From the NCBI GenBank assembly GCA_018434325.1, contig JAHDPO010000027.1, positions 1 through 40,359 on the forward strand: a stretch of DNA of 40,359 bases. The letters run 5' to 3'. The translations under genes and the position numbers were made by a program. This DNA comes from Clostridia bacterium. GTDB lineage: Bacteria > Bacillota > Peptococcia > DRI-13 > UBA5745. Positions 1,379 through 27,548 of this stretch are shown here, piece by piece; the first letter of the stretch is position 1; each line of letters opens with the position of its first letter. A model generated the notes under the pieces. That model saw only the letters and a program-made list of their open reading frames with translations. It was not told the origin of the DNA and made no database searches.

Positions 1379-1474
1379 ATAAATTCATTTTCCGAGGGGA
1401 GAGTGGTTTATTTTTTATACCTAAAATTCAGTTAAGCAATGGCGCAAATCAGAAAAGATGTAAGGAGGATATTC

Positions 1475-3007
1475 ATGAAAAAATTTTTATCGATTTTGCT
1501 TGCTGTATCTCTTTTTCTAATGATGCTGGGAGGCTGCGGATCAGTTGCCGGCGTGGCAGGCGGAGAGGCTGCCGCACCGGCTAAGGATTATTCCGGTACA
1601 TATAAAGGATCGGCTCCCGGCTATCACGGTAATCTGGACGTAACCGTGACCTTGGATAAAGCCGGCAAAATTCTTGCCGTAGAGGTAGGAAAAGATCATG
1701 GGGAAACGGAAAATATCGGCACGATCCCTATTGAAAAAATACCCGGCGCCATTGTAGCCGGACAATCTCTCAAGGTAGATACCGTGACGGGAGCAACCGT
1801 TACGGCCAACGGTATTCTGGCCGCTGTGGCGGCTGCTTTACAAAGCGCCGGCCTAGCCCCGGCGGATTATAATTACGCGCCGGCGGCAGCCGAAGAGCAG
1901 GCAGCCGCCGCTCTTGATCTGAGCGCCATGCCTCAAAAGGCCCCCATAACAGGCTCGGTTACCATAACGGACGTGAAAGGCCGCCAGGTGGACCTTGAGC
2001 TTCCCGTATCCACCTATGCCATCAGCACCATGGACGTAATCGATTATTTGATTCCCTTGCTGGGAGAGGAGGCCTTTCACATGCTGGTGGCTTCCGGTCA
2101 GGATGGCGGCGGCGGCATTCAAACCTACAGTAAGCTTTATACGCCTATCATCGGCAATTACATGAAGCATGTGGGTCAAATTTCTGAACACAACGCTCCC
2201 TTTGATCTTGAGATGATCCTGGCTACGGACCCCGATGTTTTGATCGTTAATTCCGCTATGGGGGCGCATAATTACGCTATGGAAATTGAAGCCCAATTAA
2301 CAGCGGCGGGAATTCCCATTGTGCTCATTGATATACCCGGCAAATCCCTTGCCGGGTCTGTTCAGGAGACAGAAAAGCTGCTGGGCCAAATATTCCAAAA
2401 GGAAGAACGGGCAAATGAGGTAGCCTCTTTTATTGACGAGCAGTATGCCTTAATTGCTTCCAAAAACCTTGACCAGCGGCAGGATAAGCCTACGGTCTAT
2501 TACGAAAAATCCGGTTATTCCGAGATCTTCGGTTCTACCAGCTCCAGCAAATCCGGCTGGGGCGCGGTTATCGCTCTGGCCGGCGGTGAAAATATTGCCG
2601 ATCCGCTGCTGCTTAACTCCGCCGCCGGCAAAGGAGGCAACAGCACCCTTGACCCTGAATATGTGCTGGAGGCCAATCCGGATTTTATTATTCTTAGCGG
2701 CTCCGGCGCCGGCTGGATGGATAATTATCCCGGCTCCACACCTGAGGTGCCAAAGTTTGACATCCTGAACAGAACGGGCTGGCGTGAGCTGGAGGCTGTT
2801 AAAAACGGCAATGTTTATGAACTGGCCCATGCCACCAGCAGGTCTATCTTTGGTTTTCATGCGGCCTTGAAGCTGGCGTCGGTGTTTTATCCCGAGGATT
2901 TTCAGGGCGTTGATGCCGATAAGATTATGGATGAATTTTTCGATAAGTTCATGCTGGTGAACAGTGACGTCACCGGCTGGTTTTACCAAGCCGCCGGGGC
3001 CCGCTGA
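1475..3007 (+). CDS. Corrinoid/iron-type ABC transporter binding lipoprotein with N-terminal FMN-binding domain
   Basis: I chose ATG 1475, which has AAGGAGG at 1462-1468, over the upstream in-frame ATG 1439. The 510-residue product has a lipoprotein signal (hydrophobic helix, then LGGC with Cys21). Residues about 38-125 form an FMN-binding domain (PF04205) containing D-T-V-T-G-A-T (residues 102-108), which matches the Dxx(s/t)gAT motif flavinylated by ApbE in NqrC/RnfG-type proteins. Residues about 150-500 are a class III periplasmic-binding fold like BtuF/FhuD. The cobalamin riboswitch and the following permease and ATPase genes point to corrinoid uptake. The fusion is unusual: it may couple uptake to extracytoplasmic reduction of the ligand, which is inference. 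A siderophore or haem substrate is the alternative. Confidence 0.88.
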   Translation: MKKFLSILLAVSLFLMMLGGCGSVAGVAGGEAAAPAKDYSGTYKGSAPGYHGNLDVTVTLDKAGKILAVEVGKDHGETENIGTIPIEKIPGAIVAGQSLKVDTVTGATVTANGILAAVAAALQSAGLAPADYNYAPAAAEEQAAAALDLSAMPQKAPITGSVTITDVKGRQVDLELPVSTYAISTMDVIDYLIPLLGEEAFHMLVASGQDGGGGIQTYSKLYTPIIGNYMKHVGQISEHNAPFDLEMILATDPDVLIVNSAMGAHNYAMEIEAQLTAAGIPIVLIDIPGKSLAGSVQETEKLLGQIFQKEERANEVASFIDEQYALIASKNLDQRQDKPTVYYEKSGYSEIFGSTSSSKSGWGAVIALAGGENIADPLLLNSAAGKGGNSTLDPEYVLEANPDFIILSGSGAGWMDNYPGSTPEVPKFDILNRTGWRELEAVKNGNVYELAHATSRSIFGFHAALKLASVFYPEDFQGVDADKIMDEFFDKFMLVNSDVTGWFYQAAGAR

Positions 3008-3010
3008 GCC

Positions 3011-4069
3011 ATGGAATGCAAAGGGGACAGCTGCCGGCGGACCGACCGGACGCTCTACGACAGTATGATCAGAAGGAGAGCCGTTTTAACGGCGGCACTC
3101 CTCGGTATTATGCTAGTATTGTTTTTTTTGAATATTTCCATCGGCTCTTCTTCCATATCCCTGACTGAAATTGTCCGGATTCTGTTTACGGGAGAGGGCG
3201 AGGGACATAGGGCGATGATCGTCAGGCAGGTGCGTTTGCCCATGGCCCTGATGGCTATGGCTGTGGGGGCCTGCTTGGGTATCGGAGGCTGTGAGATTCA
3301 GACGATACTGCGAAATCCTATCGCCAGCCCCTATACCTTGGGCATTACCAATGCCGCTGCTTTCGGCGCTGCCTTGGGACTTATCCTCAACGCCAATGTT
3401 TTGCGGGTTTCCGAGGCGCTTATGGTGACGGCCAACGCTTTTGTTTTTGCCTTACTGGCGTCGGTATGCGTATATGCCTTTTCCTGCCGGCCCGGCGCCG
3501 GAAAAAATTCGATTATTTTGTTTGGCATTGCTCTTAATTTTCTTTTTAGCGCCCTTACTATGGTACTGCAATATATTTCCGACGATGAGGACTTAAAAAG
3601 CCTGGTCTTTTGGAATATGGGCAGCTTGCTGAAAACCACCTGGGCAAAATTCCTGATCGTTTTGGCGGCCCTTATCTTTTGCTTTGTGATTTTATATAAA
3701 AACGCCTGGCAGCTTACGGCGATGACCTTGGACGATACGAAGGCCCGCAGCTTGGGTGTTGATACGCAAAAAGTAAGGCGCATGGTTATCATTCTGACTT
3801 CTCTGGCTACGGCTTTTGCTGTCTGCTTTGTGGGCTCCGTAGGTTTTGTGGGCATTATTGCCCCCCATATCGCCCGGCAATTGGTTGGTGAAGATCAGCG
3901 ATTTTTTCTGCCGCTGTCGGCCTTGATTGGCGCTGTCATCGTCTCCCTGTCCTTTGTCGCAAGCAAGCTGGTTATTCCCGGCGTAGTTTTACCCATCGGC
4001 CTTGTGACGGCAATTATCGGCATTCCGGTGTTTCTAGCCATCATTTTCAGCAGAATGCGGGTGATGTAA
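3011..4069 (+). CDS. FecCD/BtuC-type ABC transporter permease
   Basis: The 352-residue protein is highly hydrophobic with about ten membrane helices, as in BtuC and FecCD permeases. Family signatures include RLPMALMAMAVGACLGIGG and QTILRNPIASPYTLGI near residues 75-115, and GFVGIIAPHIARQLVGEDQR near 275-295, the cytoplasmic loop that docks the ATPase. It begins 4 bases after the binding protein stop and overlaps the ATPase gene by one base (TAATG), so the three genes form one operon under the cobalamin riboswitch. No clear ribosome site precedes ATG 3011, and ATG 3065 is a possible later start. Substrate assignment to corrinoids rests on the riboswitch. Confidence 0.93.
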   Translation: MECKGDSCRRTDRTLYDSMIRRRAVLTAALLGIMLVLFFLNISIGSSSISLTEIVRILFTGEGEGHRAMIVRQVRLPMALMAMAVGACLGIGGCEIQTILRNPIASPYTLGITNAAAFGAALGLILNANVLRVSEALMVTANAFVFALLASVCVYAFSCRPGAGKNSIILFGIALNFLFSALTMVLQYISDDEDLKSLVFWNMGSLLKTTWAKFLIVLAALIFCFVILYKNAWQLTAMTLDDTKARSLGVDTQKVRRMVIILTSLATAFAVCFVGSVGFVGIIAPHIARQLVGEDQRFFLPLSALIGAVIVSLSFVASKLVIPGVVLPIGLVTAIIGIPVFLAIIFSRMRVM

Positions 4070-4854
4070 TGCTAAAGATTGAAAAGCTATCTTTTTCCTA
4101 TAAGCCCCAAAAAGATAAAGAACCGGTTTTTCAAGATCTGAATATTGAATTCCGGCCTGGGCTTAATGCGGTGCTGGGACCTAACGGCGCCGGCAAATCA
4201 ACGCTGCTGAAATCGATGTTTGGTTTGCTTAACTATGGCGGAACTGTCTGGTATGATGACGAAAACCTTACCAGAATGAGAACGGAGGATAAGACAAAGC
4301 TGATGTCGTATCTACCTCAGATGGATGTGGAGACATCAACTCTCACCGTACTGGAAATGGTTTTGCTGGGCCGTCTGCCGGAATTGGGCCGCCGGGTGAA
4401 GGATGAAGATCTGAATAGTGTCATGGAAACACTGAAAGCCCTGAATATTCTTCATTTGGCGCCAAAAAGCTTGGGAGAATTAAGCGGCGGCCAGAAGAAG
4501 CTTGTATTTATTGCCCAGACTCTGGTTCGGGAGCCCAGGGTAATTTTGCTGGATGAGCCCGTCAATTCCCTGGATTTGCAAAAGCAGCTGGAATTATGCC
4601 AGCAGTTGCAGAAGCTCGTCGAAGATAAGGGCATTAGTATAATTGTAGTGCTGCACGATATTAATTTAGCCGTGCGTTTTGCCCAGCACATTGTTATTCT
4701 TGACGAGTGCGGCAGACTCTATAATGCCGGCGAGCCGGGTCAGGTGATTACGGAAAAAATGCTGCGGGAGGTTTATGGCATTGTGGCTTCTGTAAGCTAT
4801 GATGCGGACGGTATTCCTTCCGTTTCGGCCATCCGCTCTATCCGATGTGATTAA
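4069..4854 (+). CDS. BtuD/FecE-type ABC transporter ATP-binding protein
   Basis: The 261-residue nucleotide-binding subunit energises the permease encoded just upstream. Visible motifs are Walker A GPNGAGKST (residues 37-45), a Q-loop in MSYLPQMD, the signature LSGGQKK (about 138-144), Walker B VILLDEP (about 158-164) followed by a D-loop SLDL, and the switch histidine in VVLHDINLA. It belongs to the iron/B12/siderophore importer class. The start codon overlaps the permease stop, consistent with translational coupling. The operon ends here; an AT-rich repeat region begins at 4855 with no convincing hairpin terminator. Confidence 0.95.
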   Translation: MLKIEKLSFSYKPQKDKEPVFQDLNIEFRPGLNAVLGPNGAGKSTLLKSMFGLLNYGGTVWYDDENLTRMRTEDKTKLMSYLPQMDVETSTLTVLEMVLLGRLPELGRRVKDEDLNSVMETLKALNILHLAPKSLGELSGGQKKLVFIAQTLVREPRVILLDEPVNSLDLQKQLELCQQLQKLVEDKGISIIVVLHDINLAVRFAQHIVILDECGRLYNAGEPGQVITEKMLREVYGIVASVSYDADGIPSVSAIRSIRCD

Positions 4855-14474: not shown

Positions 14475-14890
14475 CATTGTTTCCTTTGATCCAGTCCCAG
14501 CCAAGCGTAGCGGTAAACAGAGCTTTACCATTATGTAAAGAGGTGGACTGGGATTTTCAAAAGAATATTCCTATTTATAAGAAAGGCTCTCCATCCATCG
14601 TCAGCGGATTGAGGGCCGTTCTCGTCTGGGCTTGGAAAGCTCTGCATACCCAGCGCTTTCGCCATGAAATCTACTCCTGGGATTACGGCTGTGAGTTGGA
14701 AGCCTTGATCGGCCGGCCTTTTACGGAGGAGCTGAAGCGTTCCGAGGCTGTGCGCTACGTCAGGGAATGCTTGATGGTCAATCCCTATATTTCCGAAGTC
14801 AACCAGATCAAAGTGGATTTTCGGGACGAGAATTTGACGATAACCTGCAAACTGAAAACAATTTATGGGGAGGTGAGCCTTGATGTTTGA
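14471..14890 (+). CDS. Baseplate wedge protein, DUF2634/XkdS (gp25-like)
   Basis: ATG 14471 overlaps the XkdR-like stop (ATGA) and is preferred to ATG 14453. The 139-residue protein includes DWDFQKNIPIYKKGSPSIVS near the N-terminus, WKALHTQRFRHEIYSWDYGC, and ELEALIGRPFTEELKRSEA. This matches DUF2634, related to the gp25/W-type wedge proteins of contractile systems, which nucleate sheath attachment to the baseplate. It overlaps the baseplate J gene by 8 bases. Confidence 0.88.
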   Translation: MTLFPLIQSQPSVAVNRALPLCKEVDWDFQKNIPIYKKGSPSIVSGLRAVLVWAWKALHTQRFRHEIYSWDYGCELEALIGRPFTEELKRSEAVRYVRECLMVNPYISEVNQIKVDFRDENLTITCKLKTIYGEVSLDV

Positions 14891-15929
14891 AGAGAAAACC
14901 CCTGAGCTTATCAAGGGGGAAATATTGAACCAAATGGTCAGTGATATTGATAAACGGGAAGGCAGTTATACCAGTGATATGGTGGCGCCGGTGGCTTACG
15001 AGCTTTGGCGCATGTACGACAGCTTAAAGGCTTTGGAGCCGATGGTTTTTGTGGATGAAACCTCCGGCGAATATATCGACCGCAAGTGCGCCGATTATGG
15101 CATTGCCAGAAAGCCGGGGCTAAAGGCCAAAACGATTCTGACCTTTACGGGCGATGAAGGAGTAAGAATTCCGGCTAAAACCTTGCTTTTGACGGAGGAC
15201 GGCCTGGAATTTGAGACGGAAAAGGCCGTCACCATAAGCGGCGGCCAGGCTCAGGCCATGGCAATTGCCCGGCAAGTGGGGGATGACTATAACCTGCCTG
15301 CCGATACCATTCGGCAACAGATGGTGGCGATCAGCGGCCTCCATAGCATCAGCCATCCTGCCGTCCAAGGCGGCGCCGACCCGGAAAGCGACAGCAGCCT
15401 GGTGAACCGGCTTTATGCTTATCTGCGGATGCCGGCTACCAGCGGCAATGTCTATCACTATGAGCAATGGGCCTTGGCCGTAAACGGTGTGGGCGGCGTC
15501 AAGGTGGCGCCTCTTTGGAACGGCCCCGGCACAGTGAAGATTATCATCGTAGGTCCCAATAAAGAGCCGGCGCCTCTGGAAATTCAGCAAAACTGCCTGG
15601 CTTACATTGAAGAAAACCGGCCCATTGGCGCCGAAGTAACGGTAGTCAGCGCCGAAGGCCTGACCATCGATATCGACGCCCAGGTAGTCATCGACGGTTC
15701 GACCACCGCCGAAGAGGTCCGGGCCGCCTTTATGGCCAATCTGGCCCAGTATTTACAGGAGATTTCCTTTAACCGCTATACCCTGCTGTACAACAGGATT
15801 GCATTCATGCTGCTGGATGTTCCGGGGGTAGTGGATTATCAGTCTCTCAGCCTCAATGGCGGAGAAGCCAACATTAGCCTGGCCGATAACCAGGTGCCTG
15901 TCTTAGGGACGGTGGTGGTCAGGTTATGA
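14883..15929 (+). CDS. Baseplate J/gp47 family protein (XkdT-like)
   Basis: From ATG 14883 (GGGAGG upstream; TTG 14880 in frame) the product has 348 residues. Features of baseplate J proteins (PF04865) are clear: an N-terminal helical start, GEYIDRKCADYGIARKPG, the ARQVGDDYNLPADTIRQ segment, and SLVNRLYAYLRMPATSGNVYHYEQWAL, the conserved RxxxxLxxPATSGNxxHYxxWA block. The C-terminal part builds the wedge. It is the gp6/gpJ homologue that forms the baseplate ring and transmits the contraction signal. It overlaps the following gene as ATGA. Confidence 0.95.
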   Translation: MFEEKTPELIKGEILNQMVSDIDKREGSYTSDMVAPVAYELWRMYDSLKALEPMVFVDETSGEYIDRKCADYGIARKPGLKAKTILTFTGDEGVRIPAKTLLLTEDGLEFETEKAVTISGGQAQAMAIARQVGDDYNLPADTIRQQMVAISGLHSISHPAVQGGADPESDSSLVNRLYAYLRMPATSGNVYHYEQWALAVNGVGGVKVAPLWNGPGTVKIIIVGPNKEPAPLEIQQNCLAYIEENRPIGAEVTVVSAEGLTIDIDAQVVIDGSTTAEEVRAAFMANLAQYLQEISFNRYTLLYNRIAFMLLDVPGVVDYQSLSLNGGEANISLADNQVPVLGTVVVRL

Positions 15930-16468
15930 GCCTGATGAAGTTTATGCCGCCCTATTACCAGGAGAGCCCTGTTGTGGTTGATCTGCAAGGCGCTTTTGGC
16001 AGCCAGACCGAGGCTTTGGCGGCGGCAAAGGAAGATTTGTTTAAACAGTTTACTCTGGATACCGCCACCTGGGGGCTGGCCAGTTGGGAAAAGGCTTACG
16101 GCTTGGAGGTGGAAGTAACGAAAGACCATGAATACCGGCGCTCCAGGATTCGCAGCAAAATGCGGTCCACCAGCACCACTACCCCCGCCATGATCAAAAA
16201 TGTTGCGGAAAGCTTTAGCAATGGTTCGGTGGAGCTCATCGAGGACCCCGGCGGCCATCGCTTTGAGATAAAATTCGTAGGCAACATCGGCATTCCGCCG
16301 AATATGGAGGATTTGCAGGCGGCGGTGGAAGAACTGAAGCCGGCCCATTTGGCGGTGGATTATATAGTGATCTACCGGACGCATTTGATGCTGCGGCAAT
16401 TTACCCATGCCCAGCTCAGCGCTTTCACCCATAAGCAAATCCGGGAAGAAGAGATTAATTTAGATTAA
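15926..16468 (+). CDS. Baseplate/tail protein, DUF2313 (XkdU/YmfQ-like)
   Basis: The 180-residue protein overlaps the baseplate J stop. It matches XkdU/YmfQ (gpI-type) proteins: MPPYYQESPVVVDLQGAFGS, then TATWGLASWEKAYGLEVE, YRRSRIRSKMRSTSTTTPAMI, and a C-terminal beta-alpha-beta domain. In contractile phages this protein links the wedge to the tail fibre. The last 25 residues contain a tandem FTHAQL/FTHKQI, the kind of short repeated motif found at fibre-attachment ends. No fibre gene follows: a 132-base gap and then the holin. That is the oddest feature of the tail operon. Confidence 0.88.
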   Translation: MSLMKFMPPYYQESPVVVDLQGAFGSQTEALAAAKEDLFKQFTLDTATWGLASWEKAYGLEVEVTKDHEYRRSRIRSKMRSTSTTTPAMIKNVAESFSNGSVELIEDPGGHRFEIKFVGNIGIPPNMEDLQAAVEELKPAHLAVDYIVIYRTHLMLRQFTHAQLSAFTHKQIREEEINLD

Positions 16469-16600
16469 TTCAGAACACTTCATCATAGGGCGCTATATAC
16501 TATGTAGTGGGGGTGCAATTATTTTTGGGTTACAGAAGCAAGTAGGACAAACAGTTTATTTAAGGCTGTTTTAAAATATGAATTTAGGAAAGGATTTACC

Positions 16601-17140
16601 ATGTTAAGCGAATGGAAAAAGGTTCAGGCCGTTGTTACAGCAATGGTGGCAGCCGCAGCGGTCAGACTGGGCATTCTGGCGTTGCCGGTCTTTCTGCTGT
16701 TGGGGCTGAATATTACCGATTACTTCACCGCCATTATGGCGGCGCCCCGCCGGGGCGAGAGGATTAATTCAGATCGGGGCATGGCCGGAATCAAGAAAAA
16801 AATCAGCATGTATATATTGGTTTGCCTCGGTGCAGTAGTTGATATTCTGCTAACCGTATCTACGACAGGAATTTCTATTCCTACCCGCTGGGTTTTTGCC
16901 TTGTTGGTTACGATTTGGCTTATTTGCAATGAGGTGATCAGCATTCTGGAAAATCTCATTGATATTGGAGTAGCTATTCCGCCCTTCCTTTTACCCTTGG
17001 CAGAATGTATCCGGGAGACCATTGAAAGCGGCGGCGAAACTGCCGGCAAATGCACCCTCGGTCAGACCAAGGGCGAAGGCGGCGGCAATGAGAAAAAGGA
17101 GCTGCCTGCCGGCAGCGATATGAATGAGGAGGACAAATAA
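16601..17140 (+). CDS. Phage holin, toxin secretion/lysis (holin_4, TcdE-like) family
   Basis: The 179-residue protein has three hydrophobic regions: residues about 8-48, 70-91 and 97-120, then a hydrophilic glycine- and glutamate-rich tail (about 140-179). The segment around NITDYFTAIMAAPRRGERINSD followed by GIKKKISMYILVCLG is typical of the phage_holin_4_1 group. Holins permeabilise the membrane so the endolysin can reach the wall and release particles. AGGAAAGGA precedes ATG 16601. The endolysin gene starts 3 bases after its stop, so the two form a lysis cassette. Confidence 0.92.
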   Translation: MLSEWKKVQAVVTAMVAAAAVRLGILALPVFLLLGLNITDYFTAIMAAPRRGERINSDRGMAGIKKKISMYILVCLGAVVDILLTVSTTGISIPTRWVFALLVTIWLICNEVISILENLIDIGVAIPPFLLPLAECIRETIESGGETAGKCTLGQTKGEGGGNEKKELPAGSDMNEEDK

Positions 17141-17143
17141 GCT

Positions 17144-17752
17144 GTGGTAATACGGAAATATTCCAAAAGTAAAAACGGCGATCAGCAGCTTTCCCTTAAC
17201 TTTACGGTTAAGGAGTTTGCCTGTAAAGACGGCAGCGACGCCATCTGGATCGATGAGGACTTGGTAGCTTTGCTGCAAAAAATCAGAGACTATTTCCAGG
17301 CCCCGGTAACCATTAACAGCGGCTATCGCACTGCTGCCTATAATGCTAAGATTGGCGGCGCTAAAAACAGCCAGCATATGCTGGGTATGGCTGCCGATAT
17401 TGTAGTGACAGGGATAACGCCTATTGCCGTGGCCCAATATGCCGAGCATTTGGGGGCCAAGGGCATAGGCTTATACAGTGACTTTGTGCATCTGGATACG
17501 AGAAAAGGGGCTAAAAGCCGCTGGATCAATAAAGGAAAAGAAGTGGTGGTAAGCGGCTTCCCCGGCTACCAGAAGGCGGCGGAAGGCTCTTTGCCGATAC
17601 AAATCCATGACCAGGATGGGAAGCTGTTGGCCGCCCTTCAAGGCCGGCTCATCGAAGGCGTAACCTGGGCGCCGGTGCGGCAGATAGCGGAAGCGCTAAA
17701 AGCCACTGTGATCTTCGATCATGAAACGGTAAAGATCACGGCGCCGCAATAA
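17144..17752 (+). CDS. M15-family peptidoglycan peptidase endolysin with C-terminal stalk-like domain
   Basis: The GTG start at 17144 follows AGGAGG in the end of the holin gene. The 202-residue protein has an M15A-type D-Ala-D-Ala carboxypeptidase/L,D-peptidase domain (residues about 1-125) with zinc ligands H78 and D85 in SQHMLGMAAD and H116 in DFVHLDT. The C-terminal part (about 150-200; GKLLAALQGRLIEGVTWAPVRQIAE in two parts) resembles copper amine oxidase N-like domains that many Bacillota use as wall-associated modules. It cuts peptidoglycan peptides to lyse the producer and free the tails. No signal peptide, so it depends on the holin. Confidence 0.9.
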   Translation: MVIRKYSKSKNGDQQLSLNFTVKEFACKDGSDAIWIDEDLVALLQKIRDYFQAPVTINSGYRTAAYNAKIGGAKNSQHMLGMAADIVVTGITPIAVAQYAEHLGAKGIGLYSDFVHLDTRKGAKSRWINKGKEVVVSGFPGYQKAAEGSLPIQIHDQDGKLLAALQGRLIEGVTWAPVRQIAEALKATVIFDHETVKITAPQ

Positions 17753-20254: not shown

Positions 20255-20308
20255 TTGACAAATGTTCTGTAACTTTATATGATAATAGATATAGAACATT
20301 AACTTTAT
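20255..20308 (+). promoter_or_regulatory. Promoter and candidate operators of the glutamate mutase operon
   Basis: TTGACA (20255-20260), 17 bases, TATGAT (20278-20283) make a strong promoter. Two repeat types are nested in it: the inverted pair AATGTTCT (20261-20268) and AGAACATT (20293-20300) flanking the -10, and the direct pair TAACTTTAT (20270-20278 and 20300-20308). Such a layout would let a dimeric regulator, possibly the GntR protein encoded upstream, cover the promoter. Promoter and repeats are seen; the regulator is inferred. Confidence 0.75.
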
Positions 20309-20342: not shown

Positions 20343-20753
20343 ATGCAGGGGAAAACTCTTATCCTGGGCGTAATTGGCGCCGATGTCCATGCGGTGGGGA
20401 ACAAGATTCTTTATCACGCCTTCAGGCAAGCCGGCTTTGAGGTGGTCAACCTGGGCGTTATGGTATCCCAGGAGGAATTTATCGAGGCGGCCATCGAAAC
20501 TGCGGCGGCGGCCATCGTTGTGGCTTCTCTTTACGGTCATGGCGAGCTGGATTGCCGGGGCATGCGGGAGAAGTGCCAGGAGGCGGGCTTAGCCGATATT
20601 CTGCTCTATGTGGGCGGCAATATTGTTGTCGGCAAACAGCCCTTTGAAGAAGTGGAAATCCGTTTTAAAGATATGGGCTTTGACCGGGTATTTCCGCCGG
20701 GTACCCTGCCTGACGCCGTTATTGATGCTTTGCGGGAGGACTTGCAGCCGTGA
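20343..20753 (+). CDS. glmS: Glutamate mutase sigma (S) subunit, cobalamin binding
   Basis: The 136-residue protein is the small adenosylcobalamin-binding subunit of glutamate mutase. The base-off cobalamin motif D-x-H-x-x-G is present at D14-V-H16-A-V-G19, with H16 as the axial ligand, and later GGNIVVG helps shape the Rossmann-like fold. It catalyses, with the epsilon subunit GlmE, the rearrangement of L-glutamate to L-threo-3-methylaspartate. ATG 20343 follows GGGAGAAAG. Its stop overlaps the glmL start (GTGA). Confidence 0.95.
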
Positions 20754-22153
20754 GCCTGGTTTTGCTCATTGATTTTGGCAGCACCTATACGAAGGTAACG
20801 GCAGTAGACAAGGAGGCCAAGGCTTTATTGGGTACGGCGGCGGCTTATACCACGGTGGCTACCGATATCAATGAAGGCTTAGAAAAAGCTCTGGCTGACT
20901 TGCGGAAGATTTTGCCGGCTGCTGTGGATTTAGAGAGCGCTCAGCGATTTGCCTGTTCCAGCGCTGCCGGCGGTTTGCGGATGGTCACCAGCGGCTTAGT
21001 ACCCTCTTTAACGGCAGAGGCTGCCCGGCTGGCTTCTTTAGGCGCCGGCGCCAAGGTGGTCAAGGTCTTCTCTTATGAATTGACAGAGGATGACCTGGAA
21101 GAGATCGAGAGCTTAAAGCCGGATATTTTTCTGCTTACCGGTGGTACCGACGGCGGCAATAAAGCATGCATTCTTCACAATGCGGCTATACTGTCTCAGT
21201 GCCAAAGCGAGTTCCCCATACTTCTGGCCGGCAACCGCTCCTGCGCCAAAGAGTGCGAGGCTTTGCTGGCAGGCAGAGAAGTATACCGCTGCGAAAATGT
21301 CATGCCCAAGATGAACCAGCTGAATATCGAACCGGTTCAAAATAAGATCAGAGAAATTTTCTTGCATAAAATCATTCAGGCGAAAGGCCTCAGTAAAGCC
21401 AAGGAGCTGATTTCCGGCATCCTGATGCCTACGCCGGCGGCGTTAATGGCCGCCATGGAGCTTTTAGCCAAAGGCACAGCCTGTCAAAAAGGCTTAGGTG
21501 ATCTGATGGCCGTAGATTTGGGAGGGGCCACCACGGATGTTTATTCCATGGCCCGGGGCCTGCCCCAAGGCGAAGATACGGTGATGAAAGGCTTGCAGGA
21601 GCCCTATGCCAAAAGGACGGTAGAAGGCGACATCGGCATGCGCTACAGCGCCGGCGGTATATTGGCGGCGGCGGGAACGGATAAGCTGGCGGCTTTATCG
21701 GGACTGACCCCCTGTGAGGTGGAAGAGCTGGTGGAGTATGTGACCAGCCATACGGATGTGCTGCCCGGCAGTCCGGGGACAGATGCCCGTTTGGCCGCTC
21801 TGGATTTTGCACTGGCCGCAGCGGCGGTGGAGACGGCAATGACCCGCCACGCCGGCAGCCTGGAGCAGATTTACACGCCGACGGGTCCTTCCTATATTCA
21901 GACCGGCAAGGATTTGCGGGAGGTAGGGCAGCTGGTGGTCACCGGCGGCGCCATTATCCACAATCATAATACTGCAGCCATCGTCAAGCAGGCTCTCTAT
22001 AGTCAGGACTGCCCCTTTTCCTTAAAACCCAGAAAGGTAAATATCTTTATCGATCGAAGGTATATATTGGCAGCCATGGGACTTTTAGCCGATAAAGATC
22101 CCGATTGCGCACTGGCCATCATGAGAGAGGAGTTGGAATTCCATGGAGCTTAA
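20750..22153 (+). CDS. glmL: Methylaspartate mutase accessory protein GlmL (MutL)
   Basis: The 467-residue protein belongs to the ASKHA-fold GlmL/MutL family encoded between the glutamate mutase subunits. Phosphate-binding motifs are visible: [14 protein letters not shown] near the start and [14 protein letters not shown] near residue 250. These proteins are thought to reactivate or protect the B12 enzyme by exchanging damaged cobalamin, using ATP. GTG 20750 overlaps the glmS stop; the C-terminus overlaps glmE by 11 bases, so all three are translationally coupled. Confidence 0.93.
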
Positions 22154-23606
22154 AAATAAGCGGATTGCAGACGAGGAGTTTCAGGAAATCAGAAAAACCG
22201 TATTGCAGCAATGGCCCACCGGCAAGGATGTGGATTTGGAGGAAGGCTTTGCCTACCATAAGGCCCTGCCGGCCCATAAAATTTTTTCCCATAAGCTCAA
22301 TAAGGCTAAGGCTCAGGGCGTTACGCTGATTCAGCCGAGAGCCGGCGTAGCCTTGATCAATGAGCATATTGAGTTATTGACGTATTTGCAGGACAAGGGC
22401 GAAGCCGACCTGCTGCCCACCACCATCGACGCCTATACCAGGCAAAACCGTTACCAAAAGGCGGAGATGGGCATAGAAGAGTCTGTGAAGGCCGGCACTT
22501 CTAAGCTTAACGGTTTTCCGGCAGTCAATCACGGTGTAGCTGCCTGCCGCCAGATTATCGAAGCTTTGGATACGCCGGTACAGATTCGTCACGGCACTCC
22601 CGACGCCCGCCTGCTGGCGGAGATCACCCTGGCCGCCGGTTTTACCAGCTTTGAAGGAGGAGGCATATCTTACAATATTCCTTATGCCAAGTCCGCTCCG
22701 GTAGAACAGACGGTGCTGGACTGGCAGTACGTAGACCGGTTGGCGGGTATTTATGAAGAGGCCGGCATTGCCGTCAACCGGGAGCCTTTCGGTCCTCTGA
22801 CGGGCACGCTGGTTCCTCCCTGTATTTCTCATTCCGTAGCCATTATTGAAGCCTTGCTGGCAGCGGAGCAAGGTGTAAAAAATATCACCGTAGGCTATGG
22901 CCAGTGCGGCAACCTGATGCAGGACGTGGCGGCTATGCAGAGCCTGATGTCTTTGACGGAGGCCTATCTTAAAGAATACGGCTACAGCAATATGGCTGTT
23001 ACTACCGTGCTGCATCAGTGGATGGGCGGCTTCCCTCAGGATGAGGCCAAGGCGTTCTCCGTTATTTCCTGGGGCAGCGCCGCCGCCGCCTTGTCTCATG
23101 CCACGAAAGTCATTGTTAAGACGCCCCATGAGGCCTTAGGTGTGCCGACCATGGAAGCTAACGCCCAGGGCTTGCGCTGCACCAAGCAAATGATCTCCAT
23201 GCTGCAGGATCAGCATTTGAACGAAAAGATGCTGGCGGAAGAAAAAGAGATTATAGCAAAGGAAACCCGCTGCATCGTCGACAAATGCTTCGAGCTGGGC
23301 GGCGGCGATATTGCCAAAGGCGTAGTGGCGGCTTTCCAGGCCGGCGTCATCGACGTGCCTTTTGCTCCCAGCAAATTTAATGCCGGCAGGCTGCTGCCCG
23401 CCCGGGATAATCAAGGCGCCGTCCGGATCATCGACACCGGTTCGGTCCCCTTGTCCAAGGAACTGAAGGATTTCCATAAAGCCAAGATCGAGGAGCGGGC
23501 CAAGATCGAAAAACGCCAGCCTTCCTTCCAAATGGTAATCGACGATGTTTATGCCATCAGCAAGGGCCGGCTAGTAGGCCGTCCCGCCGGTTTTGTCCAG
23601 CAATAA
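22143..23606 (+). CDS. glmE: Glutamate mutase epsilon (E) catalytic subunit
   Basis: The 487-residue protein is of the usual length for the TIM-barrel epsilon subunit, which binds glutamate and houses the adenosyl radical reaction. Characteristic sequence includes [18 protein letters not shown] near the start, [16 protein letters not shown], the substrate-site stretch [15 protein letters not shown], and [19 protein letters not shown]. With GlmS it makes methylaspartate for the ammonia-lyase encoded next. ATG 22143 lies within the end of glmL. Intact, no internal oddities. Confidence 0.96.
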
Positions 23607-23638
23607 TAAGACGAAGATTAATGAGGAGGCGCAAGATC

Positions 23639-24874
23639 ATGAAGGTTATCAAAGCGGTATGCGCAGCGGGGCGCACGGGGTTTTATTTTGACGATCAGCG
23701 GGCCATCAAAGGCGGCGCCGTCGCCGACGGTTCTTATTATAGGGGCAAGCCGGCAACGCCCGGTTTCTCCGCTGTACGGCAGGCCGGAGAAAGCATCTCC
23801 GTATTGCTGATTCTGGAAGACGGCCAGGTGGCTTGGGGCGATTGCTGCGCCGTCCAATACTCCGGCTGCGGCGGCCGGGACCCTCTGTTTTTGGCCAAGG
23901 ATTTTATTCCGGTGATCGAAGAACATATTTTCCCCCAGCTGATAGGCGCGGAAATGGATAATTTCCGTCAATTGGCGGATCAGGTAGAAAAGATCATGGT
24001 GGAGGGCAAGCAGCTCCATACCGCTATCCGCTATGGCGTTTCCCAGGCGATCCTGGATGCGGTGGCCAAATCAAAGAAGCAGCAGATGTGTGAGATTATT
24101 GCCGAAGAATATGGCACCAGCGTGGCCGACAAAGTGCTGCCGATCTTTACCCAGTCCGGCGACGACCGCCACAGCAACGCCGATAAAATGATCATGAAGC
24201 AGGCTCAGGTGCTGCCACATGCGCTGATCAATAACGTGGAAACCAAGCTTGGCAAAAAAGGAGAGCTGCTCCTGGAATATGTTGGCTGGCTGCGGGACAG
24301 AATTCTCGAACTGCGGCTGGAGGAGACGTATATGCCGGTGATGCATATCGACGTTTACGGCACCATCGGCCAGCTTTTGGGCAATACAAATTACGAAGCC
24401 ATGGCTGATTACCTGGCCACGCTGGGTGAAGCGGCCAAGCCCTTTAAACTGAGGATCGAAGGCCCGATGGATGACGATGGACGGGAAAAGCAAATGATCG
24501 CTTTAAGCAGCCTCACTAAGCTTTTGGACGACAGAAAGATTCCGGTGGAGCTGGTAGCCGACGAATGGTGCAATACCTTGGAGGATATCAAGTACTTTGC
24601 CGATAATAAGGCGGGGCACATGATCCAGATCAAGACTCCCGATTTAGGCGGCATCGGCAATATCGTGGAAGCTGTGTTGTACTGCAAAGAAAAAGGCGTT
24701 TTAGCCTATCAGGGCGGCAGCTGCAATGAAACGGACCGTTCCGCTCAGGTTTGCGTTCATCTGGCTATGGCCAGCCAGCCCGTGCAGATTTTAGCTAAAC
24801 CCGGTATGGGCGTAGATGAAGGCTATATGATCGTTTACAACGAGATGCAGAGGATTCTGGCGTTGCGTAAATAA
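23639..24874 (+). CDS. mal: 3-Methylaspartate ammonia-lyase
   Basis: ATG 23639 has AGGAGG nine bases upstream and is preferred to ATG 23621. The 411-residue enolase-superfamily enzyme converts L-threo-3-methylaspartate to mesaconate and ammonia. Expected residues align with known methylaspartate lyases: H194 in VLPHALINN, metal ligands D238 in MHIDVYG, E274 in RIEGPMDD and D308 in VADEWCN, and the catalytic Lys332 in MIQIKTPDLGGIGN (D238, E273, D307 and K331 in the clostridial and Citrobacter enzymes as I recall). It completes the glutamate-to-mesaconate module. No mesaconate hydratase or citramalate lyase gene is visible in the window. Confidence 0.96.
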   Translation: MKVIKAVCAAGRTGFYFDDQRAIKGGAVADGSYYRGKPATPGFSAVRQAGESISVLLILEDGQVAWGDCCAVQYSGCGGRDPLFLAKDFIPVIEEHIFPQLIGAEMDNFRQLADQVEKIMVEGKQLHTAIRYGVSQAILDAVAKSKKQQMCEIIAEEYGTSVADKVLPIFTQSGDDRHSNADKMIMKQAQVLPHALINNVETKLGKKGELLLEYVGWLRDRILELRLEETYMPVMHIDVYGTIGQLLGNTNYEAMADYLATLGEAAKPFKLRIEGPMDDDGREKQMIALSSLTKLLDDRKIPVELVADEWCNTLEDIKYFADNKAGHMIQIKTPDLGGIGNIVEAVLYCKEKGVLAYQGGSCNETDRSAQVCVHLAMASQPVQILAKPGMGVDEGYMIVYNEMQRILALRK

Positions 24875-24894: not shown

Positions 24895-26256
24895 ATGAAA
24901 GAAGAATTCCGTATTTTATCGACCACCGCCATTTTAGGCTACGGCTTTCCTCTGCAATCTTTTGAAGAAGGCATGAAACGCCGGCCTCATTTGATTGCGG
25001 TCGACGCTGGTTCTACCGATCCGGGGCCCTATTATTTGGGGGCCGGCGTTTCGTTCACCGACCGGGACGCGGTGAAGCGGGACCTGGAAATCATGCTGAA
25101 AGCAGGCGTGCCCAATAAGATACCGGTAGTCATAGGCACCGCCGGCGGCTCCGGCGGCCGGCCCCATCTTGACTGGTGCCGGGAAATCATCGCGGAAATT
25201 GCGGCAGAAAATCAGCTGCATTTTAAAATGGCTTTGATCGACGCCGAATTTGATAAGGAAGAGATCAAGAAGGCTCTGACCGCCGGCCTGATTGCACCTC
25301 TTGAGCCGGCGCCGCCTTTGACGCCGGAAGCGGTGGAGGCCTCCAGCCACATTGTAGGGCAGATGGGAGTAGAGCCTTTTATTAAAGCCTTAGAGGAGGA
25401 ACCGGCGGTAATCCTGGCCGGTCGGGCTTACGATCCTGCCGTTTTTGCGGCCTTAGCCATTAAGGAAGGCTATGACCGGGGATTGTCCATTCACTTGGGC
25501 AAAATCCTGGAGTGCGCCTCCATCTGCGCCACCCCCGGCAGCGGCTCCGACTGCATGTTCGGCTATATTGGTGAGGATTATTTCCGGGTGGAGCCTCTTA
25601 ATCCCATCCGCAAATGCACCACTCTGTCGGTGGCGGCCCATACCTTATATGAGAAAACCAATCCTTATATCCTGCCCGGCCCCGGCGGCCATCTGGATTT
25701 GACGGATTGCAGCTTTGAGCAGGAGACGGACAATATTGTCCGGGTCAAGGGCAGCCGTTTTGTGCCGGCAGAGCAATATACCGTCAAGCTGGAAGGGGCC
25801 AAGCGCATCGGCTACCGGACGGTATCCATAGCCGGTACCCGGGATCCGGTGATGATTGCCGCCATCGATGAGATCATTACAGGCGTGAAGGAGCGGGTAG
25901 CCGACAATTTTCGCGAAAAGCAATGGCAATATCATTTGCGGTTCAATATCTATGGCCGGGACGGCGTGATGGGCTCGCTGGAACCGAATCCCTCCACAGC
26001 AGGGGTGCACGAGCTGGGTATTATCATTGAGGCCACAGCCCCCACCCAGAAGCAGGCGGATACCATTTGTTCCTTTGCCCGTTCCACGATGCTTCATTAC
26101 GGCTACCAAGGCCGCCGGGCTACTGCCGGTAACCTGGCCTTCCCATACTCGCCCAGTGACTTCCATGCCGGCGAGGTCTACGTGTTCAGCGTTTATCACT
26201 TGCTGAAGACTGAGGATCCGGCGGCTTGCTTCCCGATTAGCTATGTGAATCTGTAG
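24895..26256 (+). CDS. AtuA/DUF1446-like protein of the methylaspartate operon
   Basis: The 453-residue protein resembles the acyclic terpene utilisation AtuA (DUF1446) family, soluble proteins without a firmly established reaction. Recognisable stretches are AVDAGSTDPGPYYLG near residue 36, IGTAGGSGGRPHLDWC near residue 80, and VILAGRAYDPAVFAALAI near residue 170. It starts 20 bases after mal and is followed by a DUF4387-like gene, a pairing that is common. No signal peptide or membrane segment is seen. In this operon it might act on mesaconate or a later intermediate, but that is a guess. Alternatively it handles an analogous branched acid. Confidence 0.82.
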   Translation: MKEEFRILSTTAILGYGFPLQSFEEGMKRRPHLIAVDAGSTDPGPYYLGAGVSFTDRDAVKRDLEIMLKAGVPNKIPVVIGTAGGSGGRPHLDWCREIIAEIAAENQLHFKMALIDAEFDKEEIKKALTAGLIAPLEPAPPLTPEAVEASSHIVGQMGVEPFIKALEEEPAVILAGRAYDPAVFAALAIKEGYDRGLSIHLGKILECASICATPGSGSDCMFGYIGEDYFRVEPLNPIRKCTTLSVAAHTLYEKTNPYILPGPGGHLDLTDCSFEQETDNIVRVKGSRFVPAEQYTVKLEGAKRIGYRTVSIAGTRDPVMIAAIDEIITGVKERVADNFREKQWQYHLRFNIYGRDGVMGSLEPNPSTAGVHELGIIIEATAPTQKQADTICSFARSTMLHYGYQGRRATAGNLAFPYSPSDFHAGEVYVFSVYHLLKTEDPAACFPISYVNL

Positions 26257-26271
26257 GAAGGAGAGGGCAAA

Positions 26272-26589
26272 ATGAAAACCAGTCTTTTAGAAATTACCGA
26301 TGTGATCCGCAGCAAAAATTCCGGCCCTTATGAGCTGACCTTCGACATTATGTTTAAAGATGGGGAAAGCTTTGAAAAGGTTTGCCGGGCGAAAATCATC
26401 AATGAAGATCTGATTTGCCGCTTGTATCGGATTGAGGCTTCGGATATTATTAATATCGTGGAGTTTAAGCCGGCCAAAGCCATTAAAGTCACGATCAAGC
26501 GGCCCATCTGTTCCGGCGACCTGGGGGAGACCGACGTTTACGGCGCCCAGCAGCACGCCCCATTATTGGGCATAACCTTTGAACTATAG
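26272..26589 (+). CDS. DUF4387-like small protein
   Basis: The 105-residue protein matches DUF4387 in its opening (ITDVIRSKNSGPYELTFDIMF), in the middle (KVCRAKIINEDLICRLYRIE), and in the end (SGDLGETDVYGAQQHAPLLG). In other genomes it is found beside, or fused with, AtuA-like proteins, and the pair is presumed to form one enzyme. The reaction is unknown. GGAGAGGGC precedes ATG 26272, 15 bases after the AtuA-like stop, so cotranslation with it is likely. Confidence 0.85.
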   Translation: MKTSLLEITDVIRSKNSGPYELTFDIMFKDGESFEKVCRAKIINEDLICRLYRIEASDIINIVEFKPAKAIKVTIKRPICSGDLGETDVYGAQQHAPLLGITFEL

Positions 26590-26609
26590 AACTACCAAAG
26601 GGAGGAAAT

Positions 26610-27548
26610 ATGGCATATTCCGAGCCCGTAGAAAAAAGTCATCTCTATTCCGTATTTTTTGCGCCCAGAGGTTATACCCGTATGGCCAGTCTTGGCATGC
26701 AGATTGCGGCCAGCTACCTCAGCCCTTTTGACAAGCTGATCGGAGTGGTGGGGGAAGGTGGCTCCGGCAAAAGCATGCTGATCAAAGGCATGTTTCCCGG
26801 CCTGGAGCTTACCAACGATGATGAAGGCGTCAATGTCCGGCCTCTGCCCATCCTCAGCGTAGGGGACAGCCCCAGCGGTTTTTACAGCACCCATACGTAC
26901 CATCTGGATATCCGCTTTGAGGCTGCTTTTACTCAAATGCATGTATTGGCCGCCGCTATTTTGGAGGCGGTAGAGATGGGCAAGCGGGTTATCGTGGAGC
27001 ATTTTGAGCTGGTATATCCTTTTTTAGAGAGAAACGCTAATTTGCTGATCGGAATCGGTGAAGAGGTGATCATCACCCGGCCTACCTTGTTTGGTCCGGA
27101 GCCTCAGGACATTGCGGAAATCGTTTTCCGCTCCATTAAGTTCAGGCGCATGACCCATACTGCCGAAGACTTATGCGAATATTATCTGAAGCATACGGCT
27201 AAAAGCAAAGAGCCCTATATTCACTCCGACGTCCGCCACGGTTTTGTGCTCAGTTTCCAAAATAAGCCGCAGGTGGATCTGGATGATATGGAAAATGCCA
27301 TCAATGAGATAATTGCTCAGGATATTACGATTTCCTATAAAGATGATCATCATATTTTGATCGGCGATCAGGAGCATGCCTGTACCGGCCCGCGTATCCA
27401 TGTAAGCAGTACTGCGGAAATCCGCAAATTTGCTTTAAACAAAGAATTCATGATCGAGCCGGACAGCGGCCGTTATTTGATGGTGGGCATAGTCGGCAAT
27501 CACGCCCCCATGAAAATCAAGGATTTGAATAAAATCATGCTGGCCTGA
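26610..27548 (+). CDS. P-loop protein of the methylaspartate operon (alanyl-tRNA synthetase additional-domain-like annotation)
   Basis: The 312-residue protein has a Walker A motif, GEGGSGKS, at residues 49-56, followed by LIKGMFPGLELTNDDEGVNV. It continues with an alpha/beta domain (EAVEMGKRVIVEHFELVYPF; LLIGIGEEVIITRPTLF). The C-terminal half (about 195-300) has HSDVRHGFVLSF and other pieces that I associate with proteins often annotated as 'alanyl-tRNA synthetase second additional domain'. That label is weak here. It is the last gene of the glutamate operon and may be an ATP- or GTP-dependent maturation or regulatory factor for the pathway enzymes. Not a tRNA synthetase. Confidence 0.75.
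   Translation: MAYSEPVEKSHLYSVFFAPRGYTRMASLGMQIAASYLSPFDKLIGVVGEGGSGKSMLIKGMFPGLELTNDDEGVNVRPLPILSVGDSPSGFYSTHTYHLDIRFEAAFTQMHVLAAAILEAVEMGKRVIVEHFELVYPFLERNANLLIGIGEEVIITRPTLFGPEPQDIAEIVFRSIKFRRMTHTAEDLCEYYLKHTAKSKEPYIHSDVRHGFVLSFQNKPQVDLDDMENAINEIIAQDITISYKDDHHILIGDQEHACTGPRIHVSSTAEIRKFALNKEFMIEPDSGRYLMVGIVGNHAPMKIKDLNKIMLA

Follow-up and report, generated by a model that had tools for sequence, protein, structure and literature searches.

Sequence and structure comparisons suggest a citramalate lyase and a TsaE-like ATPase–editing domain fusion encoded in a glutamate mutase/methylaspartate operon

The 40,359-nucleotide stretch of a Clostridia bacterium genome analyzed here (contig JAHDPO010000027.1 of assembly GCA_018434325.1, hereafter the window) contains a glutamate mutase/methylaspartate operon in which mal, the gene for methylaspartate ammonia-lyase, is followed by genes for an AtuA-family protein, a DUF4387 protein, and a P-loop protein. 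Which roles do these three proteins assume? The sequence-only reading, made from the letters of the DNA alone, had proposed that the first two might form a non-homologous mesaconate-processing enzyme, with the P-loop protein as its activator or maturation factor. Our analysis makes it very probable that the AtuA/DUF4387 pair is a citramalate lyase and that the P-loop protein, a TsaE-like ATPase joined to an editing-type (SAD) domain, is an accessory of the pathway.

Layout of the operon and its surroundings

According to the ORF positions, seven adjoining genes, all on the + strand, follow each other in the order glmS–glmL–glmE–mal–AtuA–DUF4387–P-loop. The first four encode the B12-binding subunit of glutamate mutase (glmS, 20343..20753; NCBIfam TIGR01501, 210.8 bits versus a cut-off of 135.8), the accessory protein of the mutase (glmL, 20750..22153; NF040745, 612 bits versus 475), its catalytic subunit (glmE, 22143..23606; TIGR01503, 783 bits versus 390), and methylaspartate ammonia-lyase (mal, 23621..24874; TIGR01502, 590 bits versus 286), each above the NCBIfam equivalog cut-off. 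They are followed by the genes for the AtuA-family protein (24895..26256, 453 amino acids), the DUF4387 protein (26272..26589, 105 amino acids), and the P-loop protein (26610..27548, 312 amino acids). The gaps of 20, 15, and 20 bases that had been reported after mal are borne out by the ORF positions, the 15-base gap placing the DUF4387 gene directly after the AtuA gene. Because locus comparison found the same gene order in many further genomes, this operon layout is not due to chance.

The top-scoring promoter-like site of the region lies upstream of glmS (20255..20283, + strand; TTGACA-17-TATGAT, 11/12), a consensus match only, and such sites are no more frequent than in shuffled sequence. 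Downstream of the P-loop gene lies a tRNA-Leu (27635) with a promoter-like site of its own; a terminator-like hairpin comes after it.

Two other regions of the window are worth recording. A cobalamin riboswitch (1208–1384, + strand, 112.8 bits) precedes transport genes at 1439–4854 (+ strand) that encode a binding protein with an FMN_bind domain, a FecCD permease, and an ABC ATPase. These riboswitch-led genes probably serve B12 uptake, which would be useful to the glutamate mutase of the same window. Upstream of the operon, phage tail genes (14880–17752; Baseplate_J PF04865 with 208.9 bits for 14880–15929) and their neighbors are apparently part of a prophage.

The AtuA/DUF4387 pair as a putative citramalate lyase

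Sequence searches of the PDB with the AtuA and DUF4387 proteins returned one solved complex (9erq/9evf), the chains of which are named citramalate lyase subunits A (cmlA) and B (cmlB). Homology covers the full length of both proteins, the AtuA protein matching 9erq_A over residues 3–442 (E = 1.4e-164) and the DUF4387 protein matching 9erq_B over residues 1–104 (E = 3.7e-29). We superposed an AlphaFold2 model of the AtuA protein (pLDDT 86.8) with chain A of 9evf, and the two aligned with a Z score of 46.1 and 2.6 Å over 445 residues (56% identity, TM 0.91). PF07287 for AtuA and PF14330 for DUF4387 (135.7 bits) are the only families above the Pfam cut-off; the Fumerase domains (PF05681) are absent from both proteins. 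Being homologous to a solved citramalate lyase, the pair would act on citramalate, one step after the hydration of mesaconate, and we refer to the two genes as cmlA and cmlB, encoding the putative subunits A and B of such a lyase. The CmlAB pair is thus already known by structure, and most of the original finding is therefore ordinary. Because searches of the literature for DUF4387, CmlAB, and recent work on citramalate lyases returned no description of the enzyme, the assigned reaction rests on the names in the PDB and on the distribution of the genes.

The entry 9evf, released on 2025-10-08, is titled "Citramalate lyase - ADP - pyruvate complex." The bound ADP suggests a nucleotide-assisted cleavage, perhaps via an acyl phosphate. 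The CitDEF lyase works through a thioester.

A citramalate lyase role of the pair predicts that it alternates with CitDEF, both accompanying mal. Among 80 loci with the P-loop gene, cmlAB is found in 26 and cit lyase genes in 29, and no locus has both. At the level of whole genomes, 51 of which carry the P-loop gene, CmlB (PF14330) occurs in 23 and a strong CitF match in 29, with three genomes having both and two having neither (Fisher p = 6.7e-9 for this near mutual exclusion, with related genomes not being independent). A weak CitF match in one genome (G066, 29 bits) was left out of the lyase count, and the two genomes with neither enzyme also have no detectable mal. The genome of the window, which is 98.3% complete, contains CmlB and has no match to CitF (PF04223) anywhere. 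CmlAB hence replaces CitDEF in genomes with the methylaspartate pathway.

The hydration step has to be considered together with this assignment. As the sequence-only reading had stated, neither a hydratase nor a citramalate lyase of the classical types lies in the window, and the pair does appear to be a non-homologous enzyme of the mesaconate branch that belongs to the pathway. However, the step points to citramalate lyase instead, as indicated by the names in the PDB, the alternation with CitF, and clusters that also contain a class I fumarase. That the pair is a non-homologous mesaconase hydrating mesaconate to citramalate would fit its position directly after mal and the lack of a hydratase inside the window, but is highly improbable, given that the solved relatives are named citramalate lyase and have pyruvate bound, that the pair alternates with CitF, and that it has class I fumarase as a cluster mate. 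In the clusters of Escherichia coli O55:H7 and Prevotella nigrescens, cmlAB occurs together with a class I fumarase. One enzyme of this class, FumD of the E. coli O157 cluster, is a proven mesaconase (Kronen and Berg, PMC4682846). The same authors recorded a DUF1446 gene downstream of mal in the E. coli cluster as unknown, and the present assignment would give this gene a role.

The window's own genome also has one class I fumarase match, which is located on another contig (C51:7400-8209). The idea that the genome lacks the classical enzymes thus holds for CitF and fails for the hydratase, a class I fumarase of the mesaconase type being present. At its locus (L004:6813-8248), this only match of the genome has an ORF for the second subunit beside it and is flanked by genes that read as PLP enzymes of Cys/Met metabolism, not as citramalate genes.

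Related lyase genes were also observed outside this context. On plasmids of Klebsiella (L009:8989-17048) and Neorhizobium (L010:9986-13195), AtuA–DUF4387 pairs of about 60% identity are accompanied by a class I fumarase and by aldehyde dehydrogenase or P450 genes, with no mutase. These loci may represent further catabolic operons for C5-dicarboxylates in which the same lyase performs the last step. In E. coli, a glmE–mal match is found in 1,081 of 5,426 complete genomes and is chromosomal at all but one place.

Taken together, the operon would encode a variant of glutamate fermentation via 3-methylaspartate that uses CmlAB instead of CitDEF, the activities being assigned by homology. Glutamate would be converted to methylaspartate by GlmS/E, with GlmL keeping the mutase active, and Mal would deaminate methylaspartate to mesaconate. 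The class I fumarase from the other contig would probably then hydrate mesaconate to (S)-citramalate, and CmlAB would cleave (S)-citramalate to pyruvate and acetate (or acetyl phosphate) in a nucleotide-assisted reaction, possibly with an acyl phosphate where CitDEF uses a thioester. Such a variant would explain how bacteria without CitDEF can complete the methylaspartate route.

Domains, distribution, and candidate roles of the P-loop protein

Scans against Pfam and NCBIfam gave no match to the P-loop protein above the cut-off, and PDB sequence searches returned generic Walker A matches only. An AlphaFold2 model built from 64 homologues (pLDDT 88.4) is organized in two domains. The N-terminal domain (residues ∼10–163; 26637..27098, + strand) aligns with the TsaE-type ATPase YdiB (PDB code 5np9) with a Z score of 10.6 and 3.1 Å over 125 residues. 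The C-terminal domain (residues ∼172–305; 27123..27524, + strand) aligns with AlaX (PDB code 9iuw) with a Z score of 14.0 and 2.7 Å over 123 residues, and the editing domains of ThrRS and AlaRS also match. Foldseek matches of the protein to PLP aminotransferases had an rmsd of about 14 Å and were discarded as noise.

Profile comparisons agree with these folds to different degrees. In hhalign, the C-terminal half matches ThrRS editing domains (Prob 92.8, E = 5.5e-8), and the SAD domain run against AlaRS on its own gave no match. The profile of the full alignment matches TsaE with Prob 74 (E = 2.8e-5), and the split run gives Prob 7. The controls, the N-terminal domain against ThrRS and the C-terminal domain against TsaE, were negative. 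Pfam tRNA_SAD (PF07973) is matched by 19 of the 64 homologues at E up to 0.01, which are weak matches, and PF02367 (TsaE) has no match in the window protein and is matched by six of the 64 homologues below the cut-off (best E = 0.0051).

Motif residues are conserved in both domains. In the TsaE-like domain, Lys-54 of the Walker A motif, His-98, and Asp-100 are found in all 64 homologues and Arg-102 in 59, forming an H98-x-D100-x-R102 motif. In the SAD domain, His-183, Asp-187, Cys-258, and His-264 are each present in 63 or 64 of the 64 homologues and align to the four metal-ligand positions of ThrRS; they form the motif H183xxxD187/C258xxxxxH264, which departs from the canonical HxxxH/CxxxH. 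The genome has a separate, genuine tsaE at another place, and the P-loop gene is therefore not the housekeeping copy. From fold and profile matches, the P-loop protein is predicted to combine a TsaE-like ATPase with a ThrRS/AlaX-type editing (SAD) domain; this fusion is undescribed, a literature search for TsaE–AlaX fusions having found no description.

Which of its neighbors does this protein serve? In the window and at most cmlAB loci, the P-loop gene adjoins cmlB, which would suit the sequence-only reading that it matures or activates CmlAB. This is not supported by the wider distribution, and a maturation factor of the neighboring CmlAB is very unlikely: at 29 of the 80 loci with the P-loop gene, the lyase genes are of the CitDEF type and cmlAB is absent, neither the E. 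coli cluster nor the surroundings of cmlAB in Klebsiella and Neorhizobium showed a homologue, and genomes without mal carry the protein as well. Across genomes, the P-loop gene variously adjoins cmlB, mal, glmL, citC, citX, cobO, or fumA, and the lyase type changes about eight times on the tree of the P-loop protein (FastTree, with several open forks), indicating that the protein is not dedicated to a single lyase. Given that it occurs with both lyase types, a CmlAB-specific maturation role was rejected.

The association with the upstream part of the pathway is much tighter. Among 397 genomes of one Bacillota phylum, the P-loop gene occurs in 62 of 75 genomes with mal versus 9 of 322 without it (odds ratio 166, p = 2e-49, a p value that relatedness of the genomes makes too small). 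Conversely, mal is present in 47 of 50 genomes reached through the P-loop gene, and for seven of the nine loci without a visible pathway gene nearby, the genome has mal elsewhere. Thirteen genomes with mal are without the P-loop gene, ten of them with GlmS. We infer that the P-loop protein assists the glutamate mutase/methylaspartate module rather than the lyase.

The nine genomes that carry the P-loop protein without mal, and without GlmS over the cut-off, demonstrate that it is not solely for methylaspartate. In all nine, the P-loop gene adjoins rph (RNase PH); on contigs that extend far enough, genes for a Ham1-type pyrophosphatase (rdgB) and a yfcE-type phosphoesterase come next. Among example neighbors, Pfam also identified a GntR regulator, a glutamate racemase, and a GerM-type protein. 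A GlmE-like gene lies directly beside the P-loop gene in six of these genomes and within a few kilobases in two; in one (L144), none was seen. The PRAG motif has been lost from the GlmE-like proteins, and RHGTPDAR mostly as well. The forms from genomes without mal thus connect the P-loop protein, in the absence of methylaspartate production, with the GlmE family and with an RNA-processing gene. Pairs of a degenerate GlmE-like gene and a TsaE–SAD gene by rph are located at L143:8342-10618, L146:7343-9508, L148:6815-9054, L149:493-2945, L150:6765-9008, and L151:98-1795. At L147:8493-8990, a 165-amino acid homologue has the TsaE-like domain only; rph starts 90 bases on, leaving no room for an editing domain.

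Our leading idea for the function, put forward tentatively, is that the P-loop protein is a trans-editing factor that would take 3-methylaspartate off mischarged tRNA, with the ATPase acting as a switch; such a putative ATP-regulated SAD deacylase would act as a proofreader of translation and protect glutamate fermenters from a non-standard amino acid that their own metabolism produces. The editing fold, the conserved site, the linkage to the methylaspartate pathway, and the RNA-processing neighbor rph in the genomes without mal argue for this function, and the altered metal ligands, the existence of forms without mal, and the genomes with mal that have no P-loop gene argue against it. L-threo-β-hydroxyaspartate, a relative of methylaspartate, competes well in the charging of tRNA-Asp and is incorporated by translation instead of Asp (PMC1989143); the literature searches returned no report of tRNA being charged with methylaspartate itself. 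If correct, the protein would be a quality-control factor whose gene travels with the very pathway that produces the amino acid to be removed.

The main rival, only slightly less probable and likewise tentative, is an ATPase partner of GlmE-family proteins that assembles, reactivates, or regulates glutamate mutase; in the rph-type operon, its target would be a GlmE relative that no longer catalyzes the mutase reaction, and the SAD domain would be a ligand-binding or docking module. The GlmE-like gene beside or near the P-loop gene in eight of the nine genomes without mal, where GlmS is missing, the P-loop genes that adjoin glmL (L045, L047, and L064), and the retention of the TsaE-like domain alone beside a GlmE-like gene in L147 are in line with such a partner. 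However, reactivation is a role already filled by GlmL, E. coli and ten Bacillota genomes have GlmS and mal without the P-loop protein, and the conserved metal site of the SAD domain is not needed for docking. It is less likely that the protein is a small-molecule enzyme or sensor, that is, a nucleotide-dependent regulator with a SAD-like domain binding glutamate, methylaspartate, or a metal. The altered ligand motif would be compatible with this, although catalogued SAD domains always sit in tRNA-related proteins; nothing positive speaks for a sensor, and a GntR-type gene nearby already offers regulation. Whether trans-editing or another of these functions applies, the P-loop protein represents an undescribed ATPase–editing fusion with a sharp genomic link to the production of a non-standard amino acid.

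Comparison with known systems

The lyase of the window corresponds to the CmlAB complex (9erq, 9evf) in the full-length homology of both subunits, including the 56% identity of subunit A, and in the gene order, with A preceding B downstream of mal as in the E. coli cluster. In contrast to the enterobacterial systems, the mesaconase-type fumarase lies elsewhere in the genome, and cmlB is followed by a TsaE–SAD gene that the enterobacteria do not possess. Mesaconase of the class I fumarase type (FumD) belongs to the same pathway, acts one step earlier than the pair, and has no homology to AtuA or DUF4387.

Methylaspartate clusters with CitDEF (Clostridium tetanomorphum type, PMC4682846) share glutamate mutase, Mal, and often a class I fumarase with the window, and the P-loop gene occurs in such clusters too (L014 and L035). 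They differ in the lyase, which is the unrelated CmlAB here, in a genome without CitF.

With TsaE (YjeE/YdiB), the ATPase of tRNA t6A synthesis, the P-loop protein shares the fold of residues 10–163, the Walker A motif, and an HxDxxR-like motif. Unlike TsaE, it has no Pfam match and is fused to a SAD domain, and the true tsaE is a separate gene. With the editing (SAD) domains of AlaX and ThrRS, it shares the fold of residues 172–305, and three of the four metal ligands are aligned, whereas it features HxxxD and CxxxxxH instead of HxxxH and CxxxH and is joined to an ATPase, not to a synthetase.
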